Positions 4,169 through 12,575 of a DNA stretch of 64,000 nucleotides are shown here, piece by piece. Each line of letters begins with the position of its first letter. Position 1 is the stretch's first letter. Where the stretch lies: contig JAGAIY010000020.1 in assembly GCA_017626355.1 (NCBI GenBank), positions 55,264 through 119,263 on the forward strand. The letters run 5' to 3'. The notes under the pieces were generated by a model. It had not been told where the DNA came from, ran no database searches, and saw nothing but the letters and a program-made list of their open reading frames with translations. The stretch comes from Bacteroidales bacterium. GTDB taxonomy: Bacteria; Bacteroidota; Bacteroidia; Bacteroidales; UBA932. Position numbers and translations under genes: made by a program.

Positions 4169-4217
4169 AAAAAGTGGGAATCAGAGTTCTGATTCCCACT
4201 TTTATTTTCTTTTTTTA
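4169..4217 (+). terminator. Rho-independent terminator after mrp
   Basis: Immediately after the mrp TGA there is a near-perfect hairpin, arms AAGTGGGAATCAGA and TCTGATTCCCACTT with a two-base loop, followed by T-rich sequence (TTTATTTTCTTTTTTT). It separates the rnhB-mrp block from the cytochrome cassette that starts at 4272. Confidence 0.85.
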
Positions 4218-4271: not shown

Positions 4272-5801
4272 ATGTCAAGCCAGAAAAACACTAAAAACTA
4301 CCTTCTGACCGGTCTTGTCGGTCTCGTGATCGGCGTTTCCGCGATGATCGTATTCAACACATTCTGGGTAAGAAGTTCTTCCAACGACTCATGCATGTCC
4401 TGCCATGCACATCCTGAATCGGACGCAAGCTGGAAGCAGTCCTACCACCACAACAACGGCAGCGGCACAAAGACCGACTGCGCTGCCTGCCACCTCCCTC
4501 CGAAGGGCACGTTCAAATATGCCAGAGTGAAGGCAAGAATGGGCGTAAAGGATTTATGGTCACATCTTACAAAGGATGTAGAGACCATCGACTGGACCAG
4601 AAAGAGCGAGCTTGACTATGCCCAGACAATCGTATACAACGAATCCTGCAAGGAATGTCATGTGAACCTCTATCCTGAGGGCATCACCGACGAAGGCATC
4701 ACCGCCCATCTCTATTATGACGAAAACGAGGAGAAGCTGAACCTGCAGTGCATCAGCTGTCACCTTGATGCAGGCCACTATGATCCTAACTATCAGCATG
4801 CTTCCCTCAAGAGCGCGCCTAAGCTCAGCGGAATCATCCATGAAAAAGCAGCGGAAGTCACTGAATTCAAGAACTTTACAGAGACAGTACCGGGAACCGT
4901 CGCATCTATCAGGATGATTGCCGTCCCTGGAGGTGAGTTCCTGCTCGGAAGTCCTGAAGACGAGCCTCTCCGCAAGGAGGACGAAGGCCCTCAGAAGAAG
5001 GTAAGGATATCTCCGTTCTTCATGGGAGAGTACGAAGTGACCTGGGATCAGTTCTGGGCCTTCTACACGGAGACAATGTCAGAGGGACGTACTCCGCCAA
5101 GCAAGATCTACGCGAACAATTCACGCGAAGACATCGACGCAGTCAGCGGTCCTACACCTCCGTTCGGAGCACCGGACCAGGGCTGGGGAATGGGTGACCG
5201 TCCTGCCATCACCATGACACATTATTCGGCAGAGACCTTCTGCCAGTGGCTCAGCCTCAAGACAGGAAGGAAATACCGTCTCCCTACCGAGGCAGAGTGG
5301 GAATATGCTGCACGAGGCGGCACATCTACCCCATACTTCTTCGAAGGAAATCCGAAGAAATTCTCGAACGAGGGCTTCCTCAAGAACATATTCAAGCCTG
5401 ACACAACAGGAATCAACGGCTTCACGATCTATGCGAACAACAGTTCGAACCGCTCGCAGGAGCCATCCAAGGTCAAGGCCAATCCGTTCGGTCTCAAGAA
5501 CATGCTCGGAAACGTAGCCGAGTACTGCGCAGACAAATATTCGGAAGATGCTTACAAGAACATCCAGGACGGAGCTCTTGACCCTCAGGGTCCTTCCGAC
5601 GGTGAGGAATATGTGATCCGCGGAGGTCTCTACAACAGCGACGCCGCAGACCTCAGAAGTGCAGCCAGAGCGCATACACAGCACGATGCATGGCTCAAGA
5701 CAGACCCTCAGAACCCTAAGAGCATCTGGTGGTATTCGGACTTCAAGGGTATCGGATTCCGCGTTGTATGCGAAGTTCCGGAAGGAGTGAATGTTAATTA
5801 A
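4272..5801 (+). CDS. Membrane tetraheme cytochrome c (NapC/NrfH-like) fused to FGE/SUMF1-like domain
   Basis: 509 residues. One N-terminal membrane anchor (about 11-33, TGLVGLVIGVSAMIVFNTFWV) is followed by four CxxCH heme sites: CMSCH 41-45, CAACH 70-74, CKECH 126-130 and CISCH 160-164. This is the NapC/NirT/NrfH layout, a family that oxidises menaquinol or accepts electrons in the periplasm. From about 213 to 503 follows a formylglycine-generating-enzyme-like (SUMF1) fold: MIAVPGGEFLLGS, YEVTWDQFWAFY, YRLPTEAEWEYAARGG, GNVAEY, VIRGG and GIGFRVV. The segment that carries the catalytic cysteines in true FGE reads RGGLYNSDAADLRSAARAH here, without cysteine. The domain is therefore probably a binding or scaffold module, as in GldJ/GldK. 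It is the first gene of the dehydrogenase/isomerase/GH127 cassette, 25 bases before the next start. Domain calls are firm; the electron partner is inferred. Confidence 0.88.
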   Translation: MSSQKNTKNYLLTGLVGLVIGVSAMIVFNTFWVRSSSNDSCMSCHAHPESDASWKQSYHHNNGSGTKTDCAACHLPPKGTFKYARVKARMGVKDLWSHLTKDVETIDWTRKSELDYAQTIVYNESCKECHVNLYPEGITDEGITAHLYYDENEEKLNLQCISCHLDAGHYDPNYQHASLKSAPKLSGIIHEKAAEVTEFKNFTETVPGTVASIRMIAVPGGEFLLGSPEDEPLRKEDEGPQKKVRISPFFMGEYEVTWDQFWAFYTETMSEGRTPPSKIYANNSREDIDAVSGPTPPFGAPDQGWGMGDRPAITMTHYSAETFCQWLSLKTGRKYRLPTEAEWEYAARGGTSTPYFFEGNPKKFSNEGFLKNIFKPDTTGINGFTIYANNSSNRSQEPSKVKANPFGLKNMLGNVAEYCADKYSEDAYKNIQDGALDPQGPSDGEEYVIRGGLYNSDAADLRSAARAHTQHDAWLKTDPQNPKSIWWYSDFKGIGFRVVCEVPEGVNVN

Positions 5802-5826
5802 TCACAAAACAATACACAAGACAACT

Positions 5827-7173
5827 ATGGCTAACAAAGAAATGAACAGAAGAGACTTCCTCCAGGCTACCGGTATGCTCGGAGTAGGACTCGTAGGAAC
5901 ATCCGCACTTCTTTCTTCATGCGGAAAAAAGACAGTCAATACCCCGCTTCGCGAGGCTGGCACATATTACGTACCCGAAATGCCGGACAAGGCCGACAAC
6001 GGAAAAGAGATCAGAGTAGCTCTCGTAGGTTGTGGCGGACGTGGATACGGTGCAATGAACAATGTGCTTGCAGCTGCTGACAATGTAAAGATCGTCGCTC
6101 TTGCTGACGTCTGCGAAGACCGTCTTCAGGGAATACGCGAAGACCTCAAGAAGGAGCATGGTCAGGAAATTCCTGACGAAATGTGCTTCATCGGTTTCGA
6201 TGCCTACAAGAAGGCTCTTGACGCAGATGTGAACTATGCCATCCTCACAACACCTCCTGCATTCCGCCCAGAGCACTACAAATATGCTGTAGAGAAGGGA
6301 ATCCACTGCTTCCTCGAGAAGCCTGTCTGCGTTGACCCTAAGGGTTACAGGACTGTGATGGCTGCCGCAAAGCAGGCAAAGGCCAAGAACCTCGTTACAA
6401 TCTGCGGAACCCAGCGCCACCACGAGCGTCAGTATGTAGAGGCTTTCCAGAAGATTTCCGAGGGTATGATCGGAGAGATCACCGGAGGTAATGTATACTG
6501 GAACCAGGGTATGCTCTGGTACAGGAACCGCGAGAAGGGCTGGAGCGACATGGAGTGGATGATCCGTGACTGGGTGAACTGGACATGGCTTTCAGGCGAC
6601 CATATCGTGGAGCAGCACGTCCACAATATCGACGTATTCCTCTGGATGTCAGGACTCAAGGTTAAATCTGCGACCGCATTCGGTTCTCGTCAGCGCCGTG
6701 TGACCGGTGACCAGTACGACAACTTCAGCGTTGATTTCGAGTGCGAGAACGGTGTTCATTTCCACAGCATGTGCCGCCAGATCGACGGTTGCGCCAACAA
6801 GATCGGCGAGATGGTGGTCGGAACAAAGGGAGTATGGACAAGCTGGGATGAGACCATCAGAGACCATCAGGGCAATGTCCTTTGGGCCTTCGACTGGGAC
6901 GGAGAGAGAGCTAAGCACTCTCAGTTCGACCCATATACAATCGAGCATATCGATGCAATCAACCATATCCGCAGAGGAGAAAGCCACGACGAAGCGACAG
7001 CATGCGCAATGTCGACACTTGCCGGCATCATGGGTCGTGAGGCTGCCTACACAGGCAAGGCTGTGACTTGGGACGAGATGAGCCAGTCAGAAATGAATCT
7101 TGTACCTGAGAACCCTCAGATGGGCCCTATGGACCTTACAGCAAATATCCCTGTACCAGGAAGTGCACAGTAA
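5827..7173 (+). CDS. Tat-exported lipoprotein Gfo/Idh/MocA oxidoreductase
   Basis: 448 residues from ATG 5827, chosen because the residues upstream in frame are unlike a signal peptide. A twin-arginine motif (NRRDFLQATG, Arg8-Arg9) with a following hydrophobic stretch ends in a lipobox LLSSC (Cys32), so the folded, cofactor-loaded enzyme should be exported and lipid-anchored. The Rossmann dinucleotide motif GCGGRG lies at 68-73 and the family signature EKPV at 164-167. GDHIVEQHVHNIDVFLW is the C-terminal catalytic region containing the conserved His. Family members oxidise or reduce hydroxyls of sugars and cyclitols with NAD(P); several exported gut enzymes make 3-keto-glycosides. Placed between the tetraheme cytochrome and a TIM-barrel partner, it is the likely redox core of the cassette. 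Substrate not known. Confidence 0.9.
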   Translation: MANKEMNRRDFLQATGMLGVGLVGTSALLSSCGKKTVNTPLREAGTYYVPEMPDKADNGKEIRVALVGCGGRGYGAMNNVLAAADNVKIVALADVCEDRLQGIREDLKKEHGQEIPDEMCFIGFDAYKKALDADVNYAILTTPPAFRPEHYKYAVEKGIHCFLEKPVCVDPKGYRTVMAAAKQAKAKNLVTICGTQRHHERQYVEAFQKISEGMIGEITGGNVYWNQGMLWYRNREKGWSDMEWMIRDWVNWTWLSGDHIVEQHVHNIDVFLWMSGLKVKSATAFGSRQRRVTGDQYDNFSVDFECENGVHFHSMCRQIDGCANKIGEMVVGTKGVWTSWDETIRDHQGNVLWAFDWDGERAKHSQFDPYTIEHIDAINHIRRGESHDEATACAMSTLAGIMGREAAYTGKAVTWDEMSQSEMNLVPENPQMGPMDLTANIPVPGSAQ

Positions 7174-7185
7174 TCCCTTTCAGAT

Positions 7186-8121
7186 ATGAACAGAAGAGAT
7201 TTCCTTAAAAGTTCTATGGTCGGCGCCACTGGCGTCGCCATAGCTTCATCTCCGCTTGCTGCCCTCACATCATGCGCTCCAAAGCAGCAGGAAGGCTGTG
7301 ACAAGGCCTGCTGCATGCATGGAAACGGCCAGCTGAACATCTCGTTCCAGGAAGGCACAGCTCCACGTGAGACCCTCAACGAGAAGTTCGACTATATGGA
7401 AGCCCTCGGCGTGACAGGATTCGAGCCGGGCGGATGGGATCTTGTAGACCGTGTAAACGAAATCCAGCAGGCCCTCAACGGCCGCAACATCAAGGTTTCA
7501 GCGATCTGCGCCGGCTTTGACGGTTTCATCCTTGCCGAAGATCCTAAGGTGAAGGCTCAGTTCGACAGCACCATGCGCGAGATCATCGCCGCTGCCGGAG
7601 AGCTCGGTTCTACCGGTGTGATCATGGTACCTGCCTTCAACGGACAGACTCCTTGCAAGCCTCACACACGCGAGACCCGCGAATTCCTCTGCGAGCAGAT
7701 GCATGAGCTCGGAGAATATGCCCTCAAGCACAATACCACTGTGATTCTCGAGCCGCTCAACCGTGACGAGGCACACTACCTCCGTCAGGTAGCAGATGCA
7801 GCCGCCATCTGCCGTGACTCCAAGAGTGCAGGTGTCAAGTGCATGGGTGACTTCTGGCATATGAAGGAAGAGACCTCAGATTTTGCCGCCTTCCTTGCAG
7901 CCGGTCCTGAATATCTCCAGCATGTACACATTGCAAGCCGAGGACACCGCAGAATGCCTTCGGAGGACGGCGTACTCGACAACTATGTTGACGGATTCCG
8001 TGCCCTCAAGATGATGGGATACGACAAATATGTGAGCTTCGAATGCGGCTGCGACGGTGACCGTGAGATCCTCGTTCCTGCAGCAGTAGAACTCATCCGC
8101 AAGCAGTGGGAAGAAGCATAA
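7186..8121 (+). CDS. Tat-exported lipoprotein TIM-barrel sugar isomerase/epimerase-like (AP_endonuc_2)
   Basis: 311 residues. It starts with a twin-arginine motif MNRRDFLKSS and a lipobox ALTSC (Cys30), like the upstream dehydrogenase, which implies export after folding, usually for a metal-bound enzyme. The body is a xylose-isomerase-like barrel. VILEPLNR (Glu), CMGDFWHM (Asp/His), YLQHVHIA (His) and YVSFECG (Glu) are the expected metal-binding strand ends. Relatives isomerise or epimerise keto-sugars, or act as lyases/hydratases on 3-keto-glycosides. It lies 12 bases after the dehydrogenase stop and 27 before the GH127 start, so the genes are almost certainly one transcript. Isomerase versus lyase cannot be settled from sequence alone. 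Confidence 0.85.
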   Translation: MNRRDFLKSSMVGATGVAIASSPLAALTSCAPKQQEGCDKACCMHGNGQLNISFQEGTAPRETLNEKFDYMEALGVTGFEPGGWDLVDRVNEIQQALNGRNIKVSAICAGFDGFILAEDPKVKAQFDSTMREIIAAAGELGSTGVIMVPAFNGQTPCKPHTRETREFLCEQMHELGEYALKHNTTVILEPLNRDEAHYLRQVADAAAICRDSKSAGVKCMGDFWHMKEETSDFAAFLAAGPEYLQHVHIASRGHRRMPSEDGVLDNYVDGFRALKMMGYDKYVSFECGCDGDREILVPAAVELIRKQWEEA

Positions 8122-8148
8122 CATGAAACAGACCAAACATATTTAAAT

Positions 8149-10644
8149 ATGAGACTTGAAAGACTTGTGGCGACCGGATTAATGGCCGCCACGGTTTTTG
8201 TTGCCTGCAACAGTACTTCTGTAGAGAAGCCTCAGGAGGCACTTAAACCGATAACCTTTGAAAAAGTTACGCTGGAAGACGAATTCTGGCTTCCAAGACT
8301 CCAGACACAGAAAGAGACACTCGTTCCTTTCTCTCTTGAAAAGACCGAAAGCGCTGTGGAGAATCTCCGCCGCGTGGGTAACTATCTGAATACAGGCAAG
8401 AAGGAAAAGCTTCTTCCTCTCGCACGCTATGTCGCTTCCGACCTGTTCAAGGTAATGGAAGGCGCAGCCTATCTTCTTGCTCTCGAAAGGGATCCCGCAC
8501 TCGAGAAGCAGATGGACGAGATAATCGACATCATAGCCGAGGCCCAGTGCGAGGACGGATATATTTATGAGCCTCTTACCGTAGATCCTTCGATGTACAA
8601 GAGAAACACATATACCGGCTTCGAGCCGTATTCGTTCGTTGTACACAGCCATGAGCTTTACGACATGGGACATATGTACGAGGCTGCCATAGCATACTAC
8701 AGGGCTACAGGAAAGAGGAAATGGCTTGATGTGGCCGAAAAGAACGCAAGACACATCAACAAGGTATTCTTCGAAGGAGATCCTGCATACAACGGAGGCA
8801 AGCCTGTCAATCAGGCTCCGGGACATCAGGAGATCGAGCTCGCCCTTGTAAAGATGTATGAGACCACAGGCGAGCAGCTCTACCTCGACATGGCCAAGAA
8901 GTTCATAGATATCCGCGGAATTACATATGTTCCTGAAGGAACAGGCGTGATGGCCCCATCGTATGCCCAGCAGCATCAGCCGGTCCGCGACCAGCGCACA
9001 GCTGAAGGACATTCCGTACGTGCCCTCTACCTCTATTCGGGAATGGCCGACGTACTGGCACATACCGGAGACAACACCCTCAGCCCTGCCCTTGACGCCA
9101 TCTGGCACAATATCGCCGATACCAAGATCCACATCACAGGAGGACTCGGATCAGTTCCGGGCATCGAAGGCTTCGGCCCTGAGTACATGCTCCCTAACAA
9201 GGATACATATGACGAGACCTGCGCTGCCGTAGCCAATGTATTCTTCAACTACAGGATGTTCCTTGCCACCGGTGATGCGAAATATGTCGATATGGCAGAA
9301 ACTTCCCTCTATAACAACGTACTTGCAGGCGTAAACCTTGAAGGAAACCGTTTCTTCTATGTCAATGTCCTCGAGGCTGACGGAAGAAAGGCCTTCAACC
9401 ACGGAAATGCAGGACGTTCCCCTTGGTTCGGTACCGCATGCTGCCCATCAAACATGGCGCGTCTCATCCCTCAGGTGGCGGGAATGGTCTACTCACAGAC
9501 CGACAACGACATATTCTGCGGCTTCTACGCAGGCTGTTCGACTGAAGTGAAACTTGCCGGAGGTAAGGTAAAGCTCGAGCAGGAGACAGGCTATCCATTC
9601 GAGGGTGACGTCGATATCGAGGTCGAGCCTGAAACAGAGGGAATGGAATTCACTCTCTGGCTCCGTATCCCGACATGGTGCACAGACCGCTTCATGCCTG
9701 GAGAACTCTACAGATATGCCGATGATGCATCGACCGACATTACAGTCAAGGTGAACGGAAAAAAGGTACGCGCAGCTGTCAAGGACGGTTACTTCCCTGT
9801 AAACCGCAGCTGGAAGAAAGGCGACAAGGTGGAGCTTGAACTTTCGATGCCGGTACGCTACAATGTGGCTGACGAGAGAGTGGAAGCCGATATCAACCGC
9901 GTCAGTGTGACAAGAGGCCCGCTTCTCTACTGCGCAGAAGAGCCTGATAATGAACACAATCCAAGCCTCTATGTACTTGACTGCATAGGACAGGCCGGCG
10001 TTGTGGACGAGTTTGAGGACGGTGTGATGGAGGATATCAAGACCATCAGCCTCAAGGCCTCTGCAGCACTCGAAGACGGAAGTACGGTTCCGGCAGAAAT
10101 GGTTCTCATCCCTTACTACGCATGGAACAACAGAGGTGACTACAAGAAGATGAACGTATGGTTCGGCCGCGATGCACAGACCTCGCTTCAGAGCCTTCCT
10201 AAGCTTGCAGGAAATGTTGCCGATGCAACAGCTACACATACAGGAAGAAGCGACGATGTCTATGCTGCAGTAGACGGCAGACTCCCTCAGAACTCTTCGG
10301 ACAGGACCATCCCAAGGTGGACAAGCTGGAGCAAGAGAGGAGAAGCCCAGCAGGTTACCATCAAGCTCAAGGCAGAGCAGGAAGTGGAAAGCATCTCTGT
10401 CTACTGGTACGATGAGGGTAAGGATGGAGGAGTCCAGCTCCCAGCATCATGGAACGCGGAATATCTCCAGAACGGTCAATGGAAAACATATGTTCCATAT
10501 ACAACCGACAGCTTCGGGGTACAGAAAGACCAGTTCAACATGGTTCATCCTGACCAGAAAATCAAGGCTGAGGCAGTCCGCCTCAACATCACTCCTAAGA
10601 AGGATGCCTGCGTGGGAATCCTCGAAGTTGTAATCGAAAACTAA
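8149..10644 (+). CDS. GH127 beta-L-arabinofuranosidase-like lipoprotein
   Basis: 831 residues with a Sec lipoprotein signal (lipobox VFVAC, Cys at about 20). The body matches GH127 (formerly DUF1680), an (alpha/alpha)6 barrel with a zinc-thiolate active site. YDETCA provides Glu356 and Cys358, and GTACCPSN provides Cys431 (nucleophile) and Cys432; together these form the Cys3Glu zinc site known from HypBA1. Glu340 in GIEGFG is 16 residues before Glu356, the same spacing as the acid/base Glu322 to Glu338 in HypBA1. All catalytic residues are therefore present. The C-terminal ~120 residues look like an appended beta-sandwich. It is last in the cassette, before a large palindrome. Family members hydrolyse beta-L-arabinofuranosides; some act on other furanosides. 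Confidence 0.9.
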   Translation: MRLERLVATGLMAATVFVACNSTSVEKPQEALKPITFEKVTLEDEFWLPRLQTQKETLVPFSLEKTESAVENLRRVGNYLNTGKKEKLLPLARYVASDLFKVMEGAAYLLALERDPALEKQMDEIIDIIAEAQCEDGYIYEPLTVDPSMYKRNTYTGFEPYSFVVHSHELYDMGHMYEAAIAYYRATGKRKWLDVAEKNARHINKVFFEGDPAYNGGKPVNQAPGHQEIELALVKMYETTGEQLYLDMAKKFIDIRGITYVPEGTGVMAPSYAQQHQPVRDQRTAEGHSVRALYLYSGMADVLAHTGDNTLSPALDAIWHNIADTKIHITGGLGSVPGIEGFGPEYMLPNKDTYDETCAAVANVFFNYRMFLATGDAKYVDMAETSLYNNVLAGVNLEGNRFFYVNVLEADGRKAFNHGNAGRSPWFGTACCPSNMARLIPQVAGMVYSQTDNDIFCGFYAGCSTEVKLAGGKVKLEQETGYPFEGDVDIEVEPETEGMEFTLWLRIPTWCTDRFMPGELYRYADDASTDITVKVNGKKVRAAVKDGYFPVNRSWKKGDKVELELSMPVRYNVADERVEADINRVSVTRGPLLYCAEEPDNEHNPSLYVLDCIGQAGVVDEFEDGVMEDIKTISLKASAALEDGSTVPAEMVLIPYYAWNNRGDYKKMNVWFGRDAQTSLQSLPKLAGNVADATATHTGRSDDVYAAVDGRLPQNSSDRTIPRWTSWSKRGEAQQVTIKLKAEQEVESISVYWYDEGKDGGVQLPASWNAEYLQNGQWKTYVPYTTDSFGVQKDQFNMVHPDQKIKAEAVRLNITPKKDACVGILEVVIEN

Positions 10645-10739: not shown

Positions 10740-12449
10740 TTAGGCGGCGTTTATGCTCAACGTCCAGTCTTCCATATCTGGCTTAGAAGGCAGCTTCAAG
10801 CTTCCGTCAGCAGCCACAGTCATCTTTACTGCCGGAGTCGTTTCGCCCGTTCTCGGATTGAACCATTCCAGCTCTACTTCTGAATCCGGATTCATATCCT
10901 TTATGGTTCCGGTAGCGAGCTCGTTCTTTGCGAAGAAATACAGAACGTGTTTCTTATCGGTCTTCGCATAGAAATATGCAGCAGATTCAGCATCGAAAGA
11001 AGGTTCATCGCTGAGGACCGGAACCAGATTCCACCAGTCGAAGGACTCCAGATATGAACGGAGGTAGCCCATCTGATGCGCACTCGGATATTCGATCGAC
11101 TCAGACCATGGCTTGGCCTTGTCCTCTACACTAATGCTGTCGACTCCATCAAAAGAAGGGACTCCTGCATCAAAGCTGCTGTCATACAGCCAGATATCTA
11201 TGGCACCGTATCCATAGCCGCAGAAACCGCAGAGAAAGGCAGCCCAGCCCTGAACTCGCGAGCCGAAGTCCTTGGTCCAGAGACCGCAGTATTTTCCTTC
11301 GTAGTTTACTGCAGGGCGCGGCGAGTTGTAATAATCCCTGATGAGCTCAGGCTCGGCCGGCTCAACGAACTGAGGTCCCCACTGGGCAGCCCACCAGTTA
11401 TGACCGGTTCTTTCAGCCACTTCTTCCGATACGAATACAGATGTGCTTCGTCCCTTTGAAACATCCTCTTTCCAGCCGACTCCGGTCACTGTAGTATGCA
11501 CATTATGCTCCTGATGGCCGGAGAGCGGATGCGAATATGAATCATACTTATGCATGTATTCGGCAACCTTCACCCAAGGATTGTTTGTGTAGTCATAATG
11601 TGTATTGAACCCCTGTTCGTTATAGAAGTCGTTGTCTATCTCCTGGGCAAGGGTCCACATCACAGGCCAGGCACCGAAACGTGCCACCCAATAGCGTGAA
11701 ATGTTCTCAAGCTTGTCCTGCTGAGCAGCCAGAGCCGCAGTCATTTCGTTTGAGAAGAAGAACTGCGCATTAGCATGCACCATACCGGCATCGGCAATAT
11801 ACTGGAAATACTTGTCCGCAAGGCGGAAGCCTTCTATATCCTCCTGATCCACAGTACCGTCTCCAAGCCTGAACTTTGAACCGATAGGCTCGCTCTGATA
11901 TACGGTGAAGCCCTGCTCGACACGCCTGTCCACTATGTATTTGAAATGTGACTGCGCACCTGTATTTCCAGCACGATGACCGGGCTGGTCGTATTCCTCC
12001 GTAAACATGCCCCAGTGAGTGTCACCAAGGTAAAAGAAAGGTGTGCCGTCGGCATAAGTGAAATACTTCTTGCCCGGCATCACCGTCACAAAACCGCGGC
12101 GGTAGATCTCGAGATCACCTTCGTACTCCTTGCAGCAGAAAGTTCCTTCAAGACCTGCAAGCGAAGCATCCTCGGGACAGGTCGAAGTCCAGTTCCATCT
12201 TCCCTTCACAGTTGGGGCAAAACGGACTATGAAAGTGTTGTCTCCATCCCAGAAAGCCGGTCTGGTTATGATCTCGCCTGAATCCTTATGGGTAAAGACC
12301 ACATCCATCCTCACCTCATCCGCTCTCGTCTGGGAGTAATCCGTGTCAGATGTGAATGAAAGCTCCATCATCCTCCATGTTTCCGCTTCCGGAACGGCAC
12401 AGCCTGCCATGATAAAAGACAGGAATACTAAAAACGCTGTTTTTTTCAT
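10740..12449 (-). CDS. DUF5060/DUF4038 glycoside hydrolase-like lipoprotein
   Basis: 569 residues from the ATG at 12449, chosen because it begins a lipoprotein signal (MKKTAFLVFLSFIMAGC). Residues ~20-110 resemble the DUF5060 beta-sandwich (RADEVRMDVVFTHKDSGEIITRPAFWDG, FAPTVKGRWNWTS). The rest is a DUF4038-type TIM barrel (FTYADGTPFFYLGDTHWGMF, FFSNEMTAAL, VMWTLAQEIDND), related to the apiosidase/GH140 group. Likely acid/base and nucleophile are Glu residues such as that in LAQEID, but this is inferred. It converges on the GH127 gene, and its upstream region is the repeat-rich gap before tnaA. It probably degrades plant side chains; substrate unknown. Confidence 0.75.
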   Translation of the reverse strand: MKKTAFLVFLSFIMAGCAVPEAETWRMMELSFTSDTDYSQTRADEVRMDVVFTHKDSGEIITRPAFWDGDNTFIVRFAPTVKGRWNWTSTCPEDASLAGLEGTFCCKEYEGDLEIYRRGFVTVMPGKKYFTYADGTPFFYLGDTHWGMFTEEYDQPGHRAGNTGAQSHFKYIVDRRVEQGFTVYQSEPIGSKFRLGDGTVDQEDIEGFRLADKYFQYIADAGMVHANAQFFFSNEMTAALAAQQDKLENISRYWVARFGAWPVMWTLAQEIDNDFYNEQGFNTHYDYTNNPWVKVAEYMHKYDSYSHPLSGHQEHNVHTTVTGVGWKEDVSKGRSTSVFVSEEVAERTGHNWWAAQWGPQFVEPAEPELIRDYYNSPRPAVNYEGKYCGLWTKDFGSRVQGWAAFLCGFCGYGYGAIDIWLYDSSFDAGVPSFDGVDSISVEDKAKPWSESIEYPSAHQMGYLRSYLESFDWWNLVPVLSDEPSFDAESAAYFYAKTDKKHVLYFFAKNELATGTIKDMNPDSEVELEWFNPRTGETTPAVKMTVAADGSLKLPSKPDMEDWTLSINAA

Positions 12450-12575
12450 TTTTGAGTAATCACCTAAAATATTGATATACAATCATTTCCAATCTCACGG
12501 GTGCACCCAAAGGAACACCCGTGAAATTGGAAATTGCTGATAGTCAATCGATTGACTGATAGAATCCTCTCTTAT

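Follow-up and report, generated by a model that had tools for sequence, protein, structure and literature searches.

The 64,000-nucleotide stretch analyzed here (GenBank assembly GCA_017626355.1, contig JAGAIY010000020.1, positions 55,264 to 119,263 of the forward strand; hereafter, the window) comes from a Bacteroidales-type genome of 1.70 Mb in 28 contigs that is 74% complete. Positions 4272..10644 of the window hold four close-set open reading frames (ORFs), all on the + strand. They encode a tetrahaem cytochrome joined to a SUMF1-like domain (hereafter, the fusion), a Gfo/Idh oxidoreductase and a TIM barrel, both predicted to be exported as lipoproteins by twin-arginine translocation (Tat), and a GH127-family lipoprotein (Table 1). 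Comparative sequence data provide solid grounds for regarding the fusion and the Tat-exported Gfo/Idh protein as an almost obligate pair. The closest named relative among the matches listed is locus L073, from a Bacteroidales metagenome-assembled genome, at 73% identity.

The four-gene arrangement, reported in a first-pass annotation, is confirmed. Of the gaps it gave as 25, 12, and 27 bases, the last two are correct and the first is correct if the Gfo/Idh gene starts at 5827; a start at 5791, the earliest ATG, would instead create an 11-base overlap with the cytochrome gene. Pfam matches and four CXXCH motifs bear out the cytochrome-SUMF1 joining, and the translations of both Tat proteins contain RRDF plus a lipobox-type cysteine. 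Likewise, the GH127 protein, described as having intact catalytic residues, possesses the YDETC and GTACC motifs, which hold the catalytic/zinc residues of the family. A hairpin stands between the four-gene set and an upstream apbC-like gene.

Table 1. Features of the locus, in window coordinates.
Feature	Position	Strand	Basis
Tetrahaem NapC/NrfH-type cytochrome + SUMF1-like domain fusion, 509 amino acids	4272..5801	+	PF03264, PF03781
Predicted N-terminal membrane anchor, residues 9-33	4296..4370	+	Hydrophobic stretch in translation
Haem motif 1 CMSCH, then invariant His47	4392..4406	+	
Haem motif 2 CAACH	4479..4493	+	
Lys87 + Asp94, opposite NrfH Lys82 + Asp89	4530..4553	+	Profile alignment to 2j7a_C
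Haem motif 3 CKECH	4647..4661	+	
Haem motif 4 CISCH	4749..4763	+	
SUMF1-like domain of DPQxPKS subfamily	4863..5801	+	Alignments
Flavinylation-like motif D289-A-V-S-G-P-T295	5136..5156	+	Column counts, 127 subfamily members
Signature D478-P-Q-N-P-K-S-I-W-W487	5703..5732	+	Alignment columns largely gapped in 23 SUMF1-like controls
Gfo/Idh oxidoreductase, Tat-exported lipoprotein, 460/448 amino acids	5791..7173, probable start 5827	+	Pfam GFO_IDH_MocA
TIM barrel, xylose-isomerase-like, Tat-exported lipoprotein, 311 amino acids	7186..8121	+	Pfam AP_endonuc_2
GH127-family lipoprotein, 831 amino acids, probably local passenger	8149..10644	+	Pfam
Terminator-like hairpin closing upstream unit, 15-pair stem, then T-rich tail	4170..4203	+	

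The fusion's haem part belongs to the NapC/NirT family (PF03264, 91.5 bits against a cut-off of 24.1), and its CXXCH motifs, at residues 41, 70, 126, and 160, are all invariant in an alignment of the window fusion with 23 homologues (A1). A profile of the domain matched NrfH (2j7a; E 3.8e-8), while phmmer with the haem domain alone returned no match. Lys87 and Asp94, invariant in A1 and in a second alignment (A5), fall on NrfH Lys82 and Asp89, residues of its quinone site, and contact between the haem part and quinone is therefore plausible. His47 falls on Met49, presumably the haem-1 ligand of NrfH (residues counted by hand). Like the NrfH/NapC quinol dehydrogenases, the fusion has a membrane tetrahaem domain with the conserved Lys and Asp, but it differs in its invariant histidine, in the attached SUMF1-like domain, and in having a Gfo/Idh partner instead of NrfA. 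Its score against the NCBIfam NrfH equivalog is 60.4 of 134.2 bits, and NrfA was rejected as its partner since none was found in the window's genome (74% complete).

The SUMF1-like domain (PF03781, 134.6 bits) is placed by profile matches in the fold family of FGE, EgtB, and PvdO, with GldK/PorK also matched. Alignments solidly support its assignment to a distinct subfamily with the C-terminal motif DPQxPKSxWW. This motif, together with a D-x-x-[ST]-x-[PA]-[TS] loop and the absence of a conserved cysteine pair, distinguishes the domain from FGE, PvdO, and GldK/PorK. Specifically, the alignments contain no conserved cysteine between the RGG and DPQ motifs, the stretch where the catalytic cysteines of FGE belong, and FGE activity was rejected for this reason.

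Among 295 sampled genomes of the order, homologues of the fusion with 43-64% identity occur in 38, counting that of the window (E up to 1e-40), and the fusion is thus not a chance product. The partner Gfo/Idh clade occurs in 39 (profile E up to 1e-100), namely the same 38 plus G160; the joint presence in 38 of 295 corresponds to a Fisher p of about 3e-47, uncorrected for kinship. Both genes are missing from a genus mate of the window's genome (G008, listed as 100% complete), suggesting that the two are gained or lost together as one unit.

Gene neighborhoods were compared using 40 fetched loci with the fusion and the best 80 of 569 relatives with named organisms. In addition, 296 Bacteroidota genomes were profile-searched for the SUMF1-like subfamily, which was found in 37 at E up to 1e-70, and the 39 sites that lie outside the window were retrieved. 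Counts refer to 126 anchors with the DPQ motif (124 distinct proteins, not thinned for kinship): 48 tetrahaem fusions and 78 others, the latter consisting of 74 haem-free proteins and 4 with one or two haem motifs. Motif-less SUMF1-like proteins served as controls (23, or 25 in the TIM count). The subfamily was picked by the distant DPQ motif and not by the flavinylation-like motif treated below. Loci without a callable anchor ORF were dropped before counting (L064 of the 40; L086, L089, L107, L112, L120, L123, L124, L128, and L139 of the 80). A six-frame recheck located the DPQ motif in nine of these ten (not L128), and it also revealed that the ORF caller had hidden the Gfo/Idh genes of L090, L208, and L214. 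With rechecked loci added, the Gfo/Idh clade is present at 47/49 tetrahaem and 70/86 other loci, and ApbE at 0/49 and 35/86; counts given elsewhere are the original, slightly lower ones.

The Gfo/Idh clade lies within the locus in 46 of the 48 tetrahaem cases. No Gfo/Idh was found by six-frame check in the fetched stretches of the two exceptions, L043 and L049, and the respective genomes do encode one, in G112 some 9 kb further along the same contig and in G270 in several copies on other contigs. Adjacency (same strand, 400 bases or less) was seen at 42/48 tetrahaem loci, 56/74 haem-free loci, and 1/4 loci with one or two haem motifs; in total, 57/78 non-tetrahaem motif loci had an adjacent Gfo/Idh versus 0/23 motif-less controls. 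The partner also changes with its neighbor: a lipobox is present on 44/46 partners at fusion loci (one unscorable) versus 1/60 at haem-free loci (three unscorable), the pattern that a joint move of the two partners to the membrane would produce. The proposal that the fusion is linked to the dehydrogenase has therefore held up, in that fusion homologues are not usually found alone and all 38 order genomes carrying one also encode the Gfo/Idh protein.

Membership of the partner in the Gfo/Idh/MocA family is supported by PF01408 and by conserved K177, H278, and D281, which align with solved inositol dehydrogenases. Arg20, Glu176-Lys177-Pro178, His278, and Asp281 are conserved in 99% or more of 104 aligned sequences, and Asp106, where the second strand ends, suggests that the cofactor is nicotinamide adenine dinucleotide (NAD). 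Against a model trained on such partners, the clade scores 390-681 bits, versus 57-107 for other Gfo/Idh proteins in the loci, with two fragments at 160 and 218. Exported members of the Gfo/Idh family are widespread in Bacteroidota and Planctomycetota, and a 3-keto-glycoside pathway exists in Bacteroides, to which NCBIfam names also point. The partner shares the family and catalytic Lys of the glycoside 3-dehydrogenases BT_2158 and DgpA, but differs in its apparent electron-outlet partner and in its BT_2158 score: the window protein had no listed BT_2158_fam match, and the relative at L093 scored 55.7 of 750. None of its solved-structure matches was named GH109; no GH109 model was run.

Among the matches listed, the tetrahaem fusion is seen only in Bacteroidales-type genomes. 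Relatives without the tetrahaem part, with 30-44% identity over the SUMF1-like domain, occur among those matches in Flavobacteriia, Chitinophagaceae, Sphingobacteriaceae, Planctomycetes, Verrucomicrobia, Acidobacteria, and others, and those with DPQxPKSxWW usually lie immediately 5' of a Tat Gfo/Idh gene from the partner clade. The tetrahaem fusions, along with L072, which ends at a contig edge, group as one clade in a quick maximum-likelihood tree (100% support in the Shimodaira-Hasegawa-like approximate likelihood ratio test, SH-aLRT). To place the four other loci with haem motifs, the tree needs four changes, of which supported branches force no fewer than two. A PSCyt1 domain was confirmed in the three of them that were scanned (L096, L088, and L108; the fourth is L095), and of the four only L096 has an adjoining Gfo/Idh. 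By these domain assignments, two unrelated kinds of c-type cytochrome, tetrahaem NapC and PSCyt1, are joined to the same SUMF1-like domain. Long ORFs in L214 and L141 were considered as natural Gfo-SUMF1 fusions and rejected, as they contain no Gfo domain. The window's genome also encodes a second, different cytochrome-SUMF1 fusion (G000:C3, L002 1096-3372, - strand) of 759 amino acids with two CXXCH motifs and without the DPQ signature. In two flavobacterial loci, L084 and L187, the DPQ-type gene is part of an operon with YceI, ApbE, a PSCyt1/PSCyt2/PSD1 protein, and a Tat protein, with no Gfo/Idh; L122 shows the first three genes only. The domain may thus have other redox partners.

ApbE-like genes appeared at some loci without Gfo/Idh, and a search model was seeded from five of them. 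With it, ApbE turned up at 31/126 loci with the DPQ motif, every one of which belongs to the 78 non-tetrahaem loci, and at 0/23 controls; Pfam confirms three of the genes. Gene orders are usually SUMF1-Gfo-ApbE-TIM or ApbE-SUMF1-Gfo. Seven of the 31 had no Gfo/Idh ORF, which six-frame translation recovered in L090, L208, and L214 and not in L084, L108, L122, or L187. ApbE is encoded by 36/36 Bacteroidota genomes with the haem-free form versus 45/59 others (a sample of 61 minus G000 and G296; p 0.0008, uncorrected for kinship), and in G296, G416, G505, and G521 the SUMF1 gene has the genome's sole ApbE match no more than about 4 kb away. TatC and ApbE are both encoded in the window's genome, the latter as a single copy away from the locus.

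According to PMC12052999, ApbE covalently attaches flavin mononucleotide (FMN) to exported proteins, recognizing D-x-x-[S/T]-G-A-[S/T] and modifying the last residue. The corresponding loop of the window protein, DAVSGPT, departs from this consensus once, with Pro for Ala. Over 127 subfamily members, column 289 is Asp in 124 and Glu in 3, column 292 is Ser/Thr in 109, and columns 294 (Pro/Ala) and 295 (Thr/Ser) follow the pattern in all 127. The exact consensus is found in 12/126 SUMF1-like anchors, nine of the 12 being tetrahaem fusions, and in 0/110 Gfo/Idh, 0/48 TIM-like, 0/30 ApbE, and 2/1024 other ORFs (at least 150 amino acids). Like the ApbE-flavinylated carriers NqrC, RnfG, NosR, and PceC, the fusion is predicted to be extracytoplasmic, has a D-x-x-[ST]-G-A-[ST]-like motif, and has haem-free relatives linked to ApbE. 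Its fold is different, however, and most SUMF1-like members lack the consensus Gly, the consensus Ala, or both. The main text of two flavinylation surveys (PMC8238504 and PMC11334425) contains no mention of formylglycine, SUMF1, or FGE.

As for the chemistry of the neighborhood, the TIM barrel matches 3kws, a putative sugar isomerase, and YcjR, a 3-keto-D-glucoside 4-epimerase (6wn6; 98.9 bits, E 2.7e-27), whose activity it may share by homology. A TIM-like gene is present in 19/48 fusion loci, 28/78 other motif loci, and 0/25 controls, and its proposed membership in the system can be retained as that of a common partner. Along with ThuA-like and further Gfo/Idh genes that adjoin some fusions (by eye), these matches point to 3-keto sugars.

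We consider it somewhat probable that the fusion and the Tat Gfo/Idh protein constitute one extracytoplasmic redox module in which electrons pass from the Gfo/Idh protein to haem. The Gfo/Idh protein would fold around its NAD(P) in the cytoplasm, undergo Tat export, and become lipid-anchored; it would oxidize a sugar or glycoside, probably to the 3-keto form, and the neighboring TIM barrel would isomerize or cleave the product. The SUMF1-like domain would reoxidize the reduced nicotinamide in place and hand electrons singly to the four haems and then to menaquinone, such that the cytochrome would reoxidize the dehydrogenase cofactor, as the first-pass annotation proposed. The simplest account of the step from two electrons to one would be an ApbE-attached FMN on Thr295, a modification of the fusion that we put forward tentatively. 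More broadly, it is conceivable, though we would not call it probable, that the DPQxPKS domain represents a new class of ApbE-flavinylated carrier that makes a respiratory dehydrogenase of an exported Gfo/Idh whose NAD(P) stays permanently bound, with hydride passing from NAD(P)H to the covalent FMN and electrons onward to whichever cytochrome a lineage has fused or supplied.

If so, the acceptors would be tetrahaem NapC in Bacteroidales, PSCyt1 in Verrucomicrobia, and others elsewhere, making for a widespread sugar-respiring system with nicotinamide as a prosthetic group. In gut-type Bacteroidales, such a system would couple the degradation of glycans to anaerobic respiration, and the range of folds modified by ApbE would gain a new one. 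Moreover, a conserved partner resembling an electron outlet would make the extracytoplasmic regeneration of NAD(P) by exported Gfo/Idh enzymes a testable question. No description of a cytochrome-SUMF1-Gfo/Idh system was found in the literature searched (leading results, with little subscription material). The flavin adenine dinucleotide (FAD)-dependent (GMC) glucoside 3-dehydrogenases with a cytochrome subunit similarly couple periplasmic sugar 3-oxidation to cytochrome c, but they are an unrelated enzyme family using FAD, where nicotinamide would serve here.

Several observations weigh against this interpretation. There is no ApbE near any of the 48 tetrahaem fusions, Pro294 replaces the consensus Ala in the window protein and 38/48 fusions, and Gly293 is replaced by Arg in 51/127 subfamily members. 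Ordinary SUMF1-like proteins (L131, L137, and L144; DAFEGRDPKY in L137) have counterparts of Asp289, Ala290, Pro296, and Tyr298, suggesting that part of the motif is ancestral structure. ApbE is also common in the order anyway (268/295 genomes; 36/37 fusion genomes), and its genome-wide presence says little there and was rejected as a discriminator. The ApbE genes of L084, L122, and L187 sit in the YceI/ApbE/PSCyt1-type operon and not beside a Gfo/Idh, and 13/78 non-tetrahaem loci have no Gfo/Idh clade even after the six-frame recheck (one has a fragment at a contig end). The lack of ApbE at the tetrahaem loci, Pro294, and the framework shared with ordinary SUMF1-like proteins would suit the same module and electron direction without flavin, the SUMF1-like domain acting as a dock at which the nicotinamide of the Gfo/Idh comes close to haem or quinone. 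The profile match to PorK/GldK, where the fold has a structural use, lends itself to this reading, and docking, which the first-pass annotation had suggested, is in itself plausible. Nevertheless, a flavin-free dock leaves ApbE at 31/78 non-tetrahaem loci and the invariant Thr/Ser295 unexplained, and a direct hydride-to-haem transfer would be chemically awkward. That the domain pairs with Gfo/Idh where there is no cytochrome, together with the ApbE link, suggests that it is more than a dock, and we regard the flavin-free version as rather unlikely.

A self-contained dehydrogenase poses a different challenge. According to PMC11239390, DgpA, a Gfo/Idh enzyme that makes 3-keto glycosides, regenerates its own NAD with 3-oxo-glucose, a 3-keto sugar, and thus needs no outlet. 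The window enzyme could likewise recycle its cofactor by oxidation, elimination or hydration, and re-reduction, with the cytochrome-SUMF1 protein serving an unrelated periplasmic redox reaction from merely co-regulated genes; the resemblance of the TIM barrel to a 3-keto-glucoside epimerase fits this scheme. It sits poorly with the near-perfect co-occurrence and adjacency across several phyla, the correlated lipobox change, and the separate cytochrome fusions, and appears improbable. Electrons might also run in reverse, from menaquinol through the haems to a Gfo/Idh protein that reduces a keto-sugar or other substrate, as in an anaerobic respiratory reductase. Among solved structures the haem part is closest to NrfH, which is a quinol dehydrogenase, and the tetrahaem fusion is confined, among the matches listed, to Bacteroidales-type genomes. 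The same Gfo/Idh-SUMF1 pair, however, occurs in groups such as Flavobacteriaceae, Pedobacter, and Planctomycetes, which are commonly aerobic. The redox potentials, about -75 mV for menaquinol and about -320 mV for NAD, make reverse transfer uphill; the electron direction proposed above is inferred from them, and we give the reverse direction little chance. Finally, membership in the fold family of FGE, EgtB, and PvdO would permit a modifying enzyme that matures the Gfo/Idh, with the cytochrome feeding electrons to a metal site. This seems very improbable indeed, in view of the lack of conserved cysteines where FGE has its catalytic pair; likewise, no invariant cysteine was noticed among the Gfo/Idh columns, in which no systematic search for a modification site was made.

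In contrast to the core link between fusion and Gfo/Idh protein, which is supported, the part given to GH127 and candidate arabinosides in the first-pass annotation is not supported by the comparison. The protein is a genuine family member (PF07944 catalytic domain, 305.9 bits, with middle, C-terminal, and F5/8 type C domains), but GH127 is absent from all 126 related motif-bearing loci, leaving the arabinoside idea without comparative support. GH127 and arabinosides were accordingly rejected as parts of the system, and the gene is probably an incidental local passenger. In L073, a gene for a ResB-like membrane protein follows the TIM gene in its place (by eye). The closest NCBIfam model to the GH127 protein is aceric acid hydrolase, far under its cut-off (423 of 950 bits), and an apiosidase-like gene (PF13204; window 10740-12482, - strand) is convergent with it, which hints at rhamnogalacturonan-II-type substrates.

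Other neighbors recur elsewhere. Hemerythrin-like and LuxR-type regulator genes lie beside the fusion operon in L073 (6925-7866, one gene) and L033 (13087-14452, two genes) by eye, and redox-sensing control of the operon is possible. In L047, L057, L060, and L078, a recurrent set 3' of the pair comprises, as judged by eye and length, a second Tat Gfo/Idh, a ThuA-like protein, a glycosyltransferase, and a large membrane protein.

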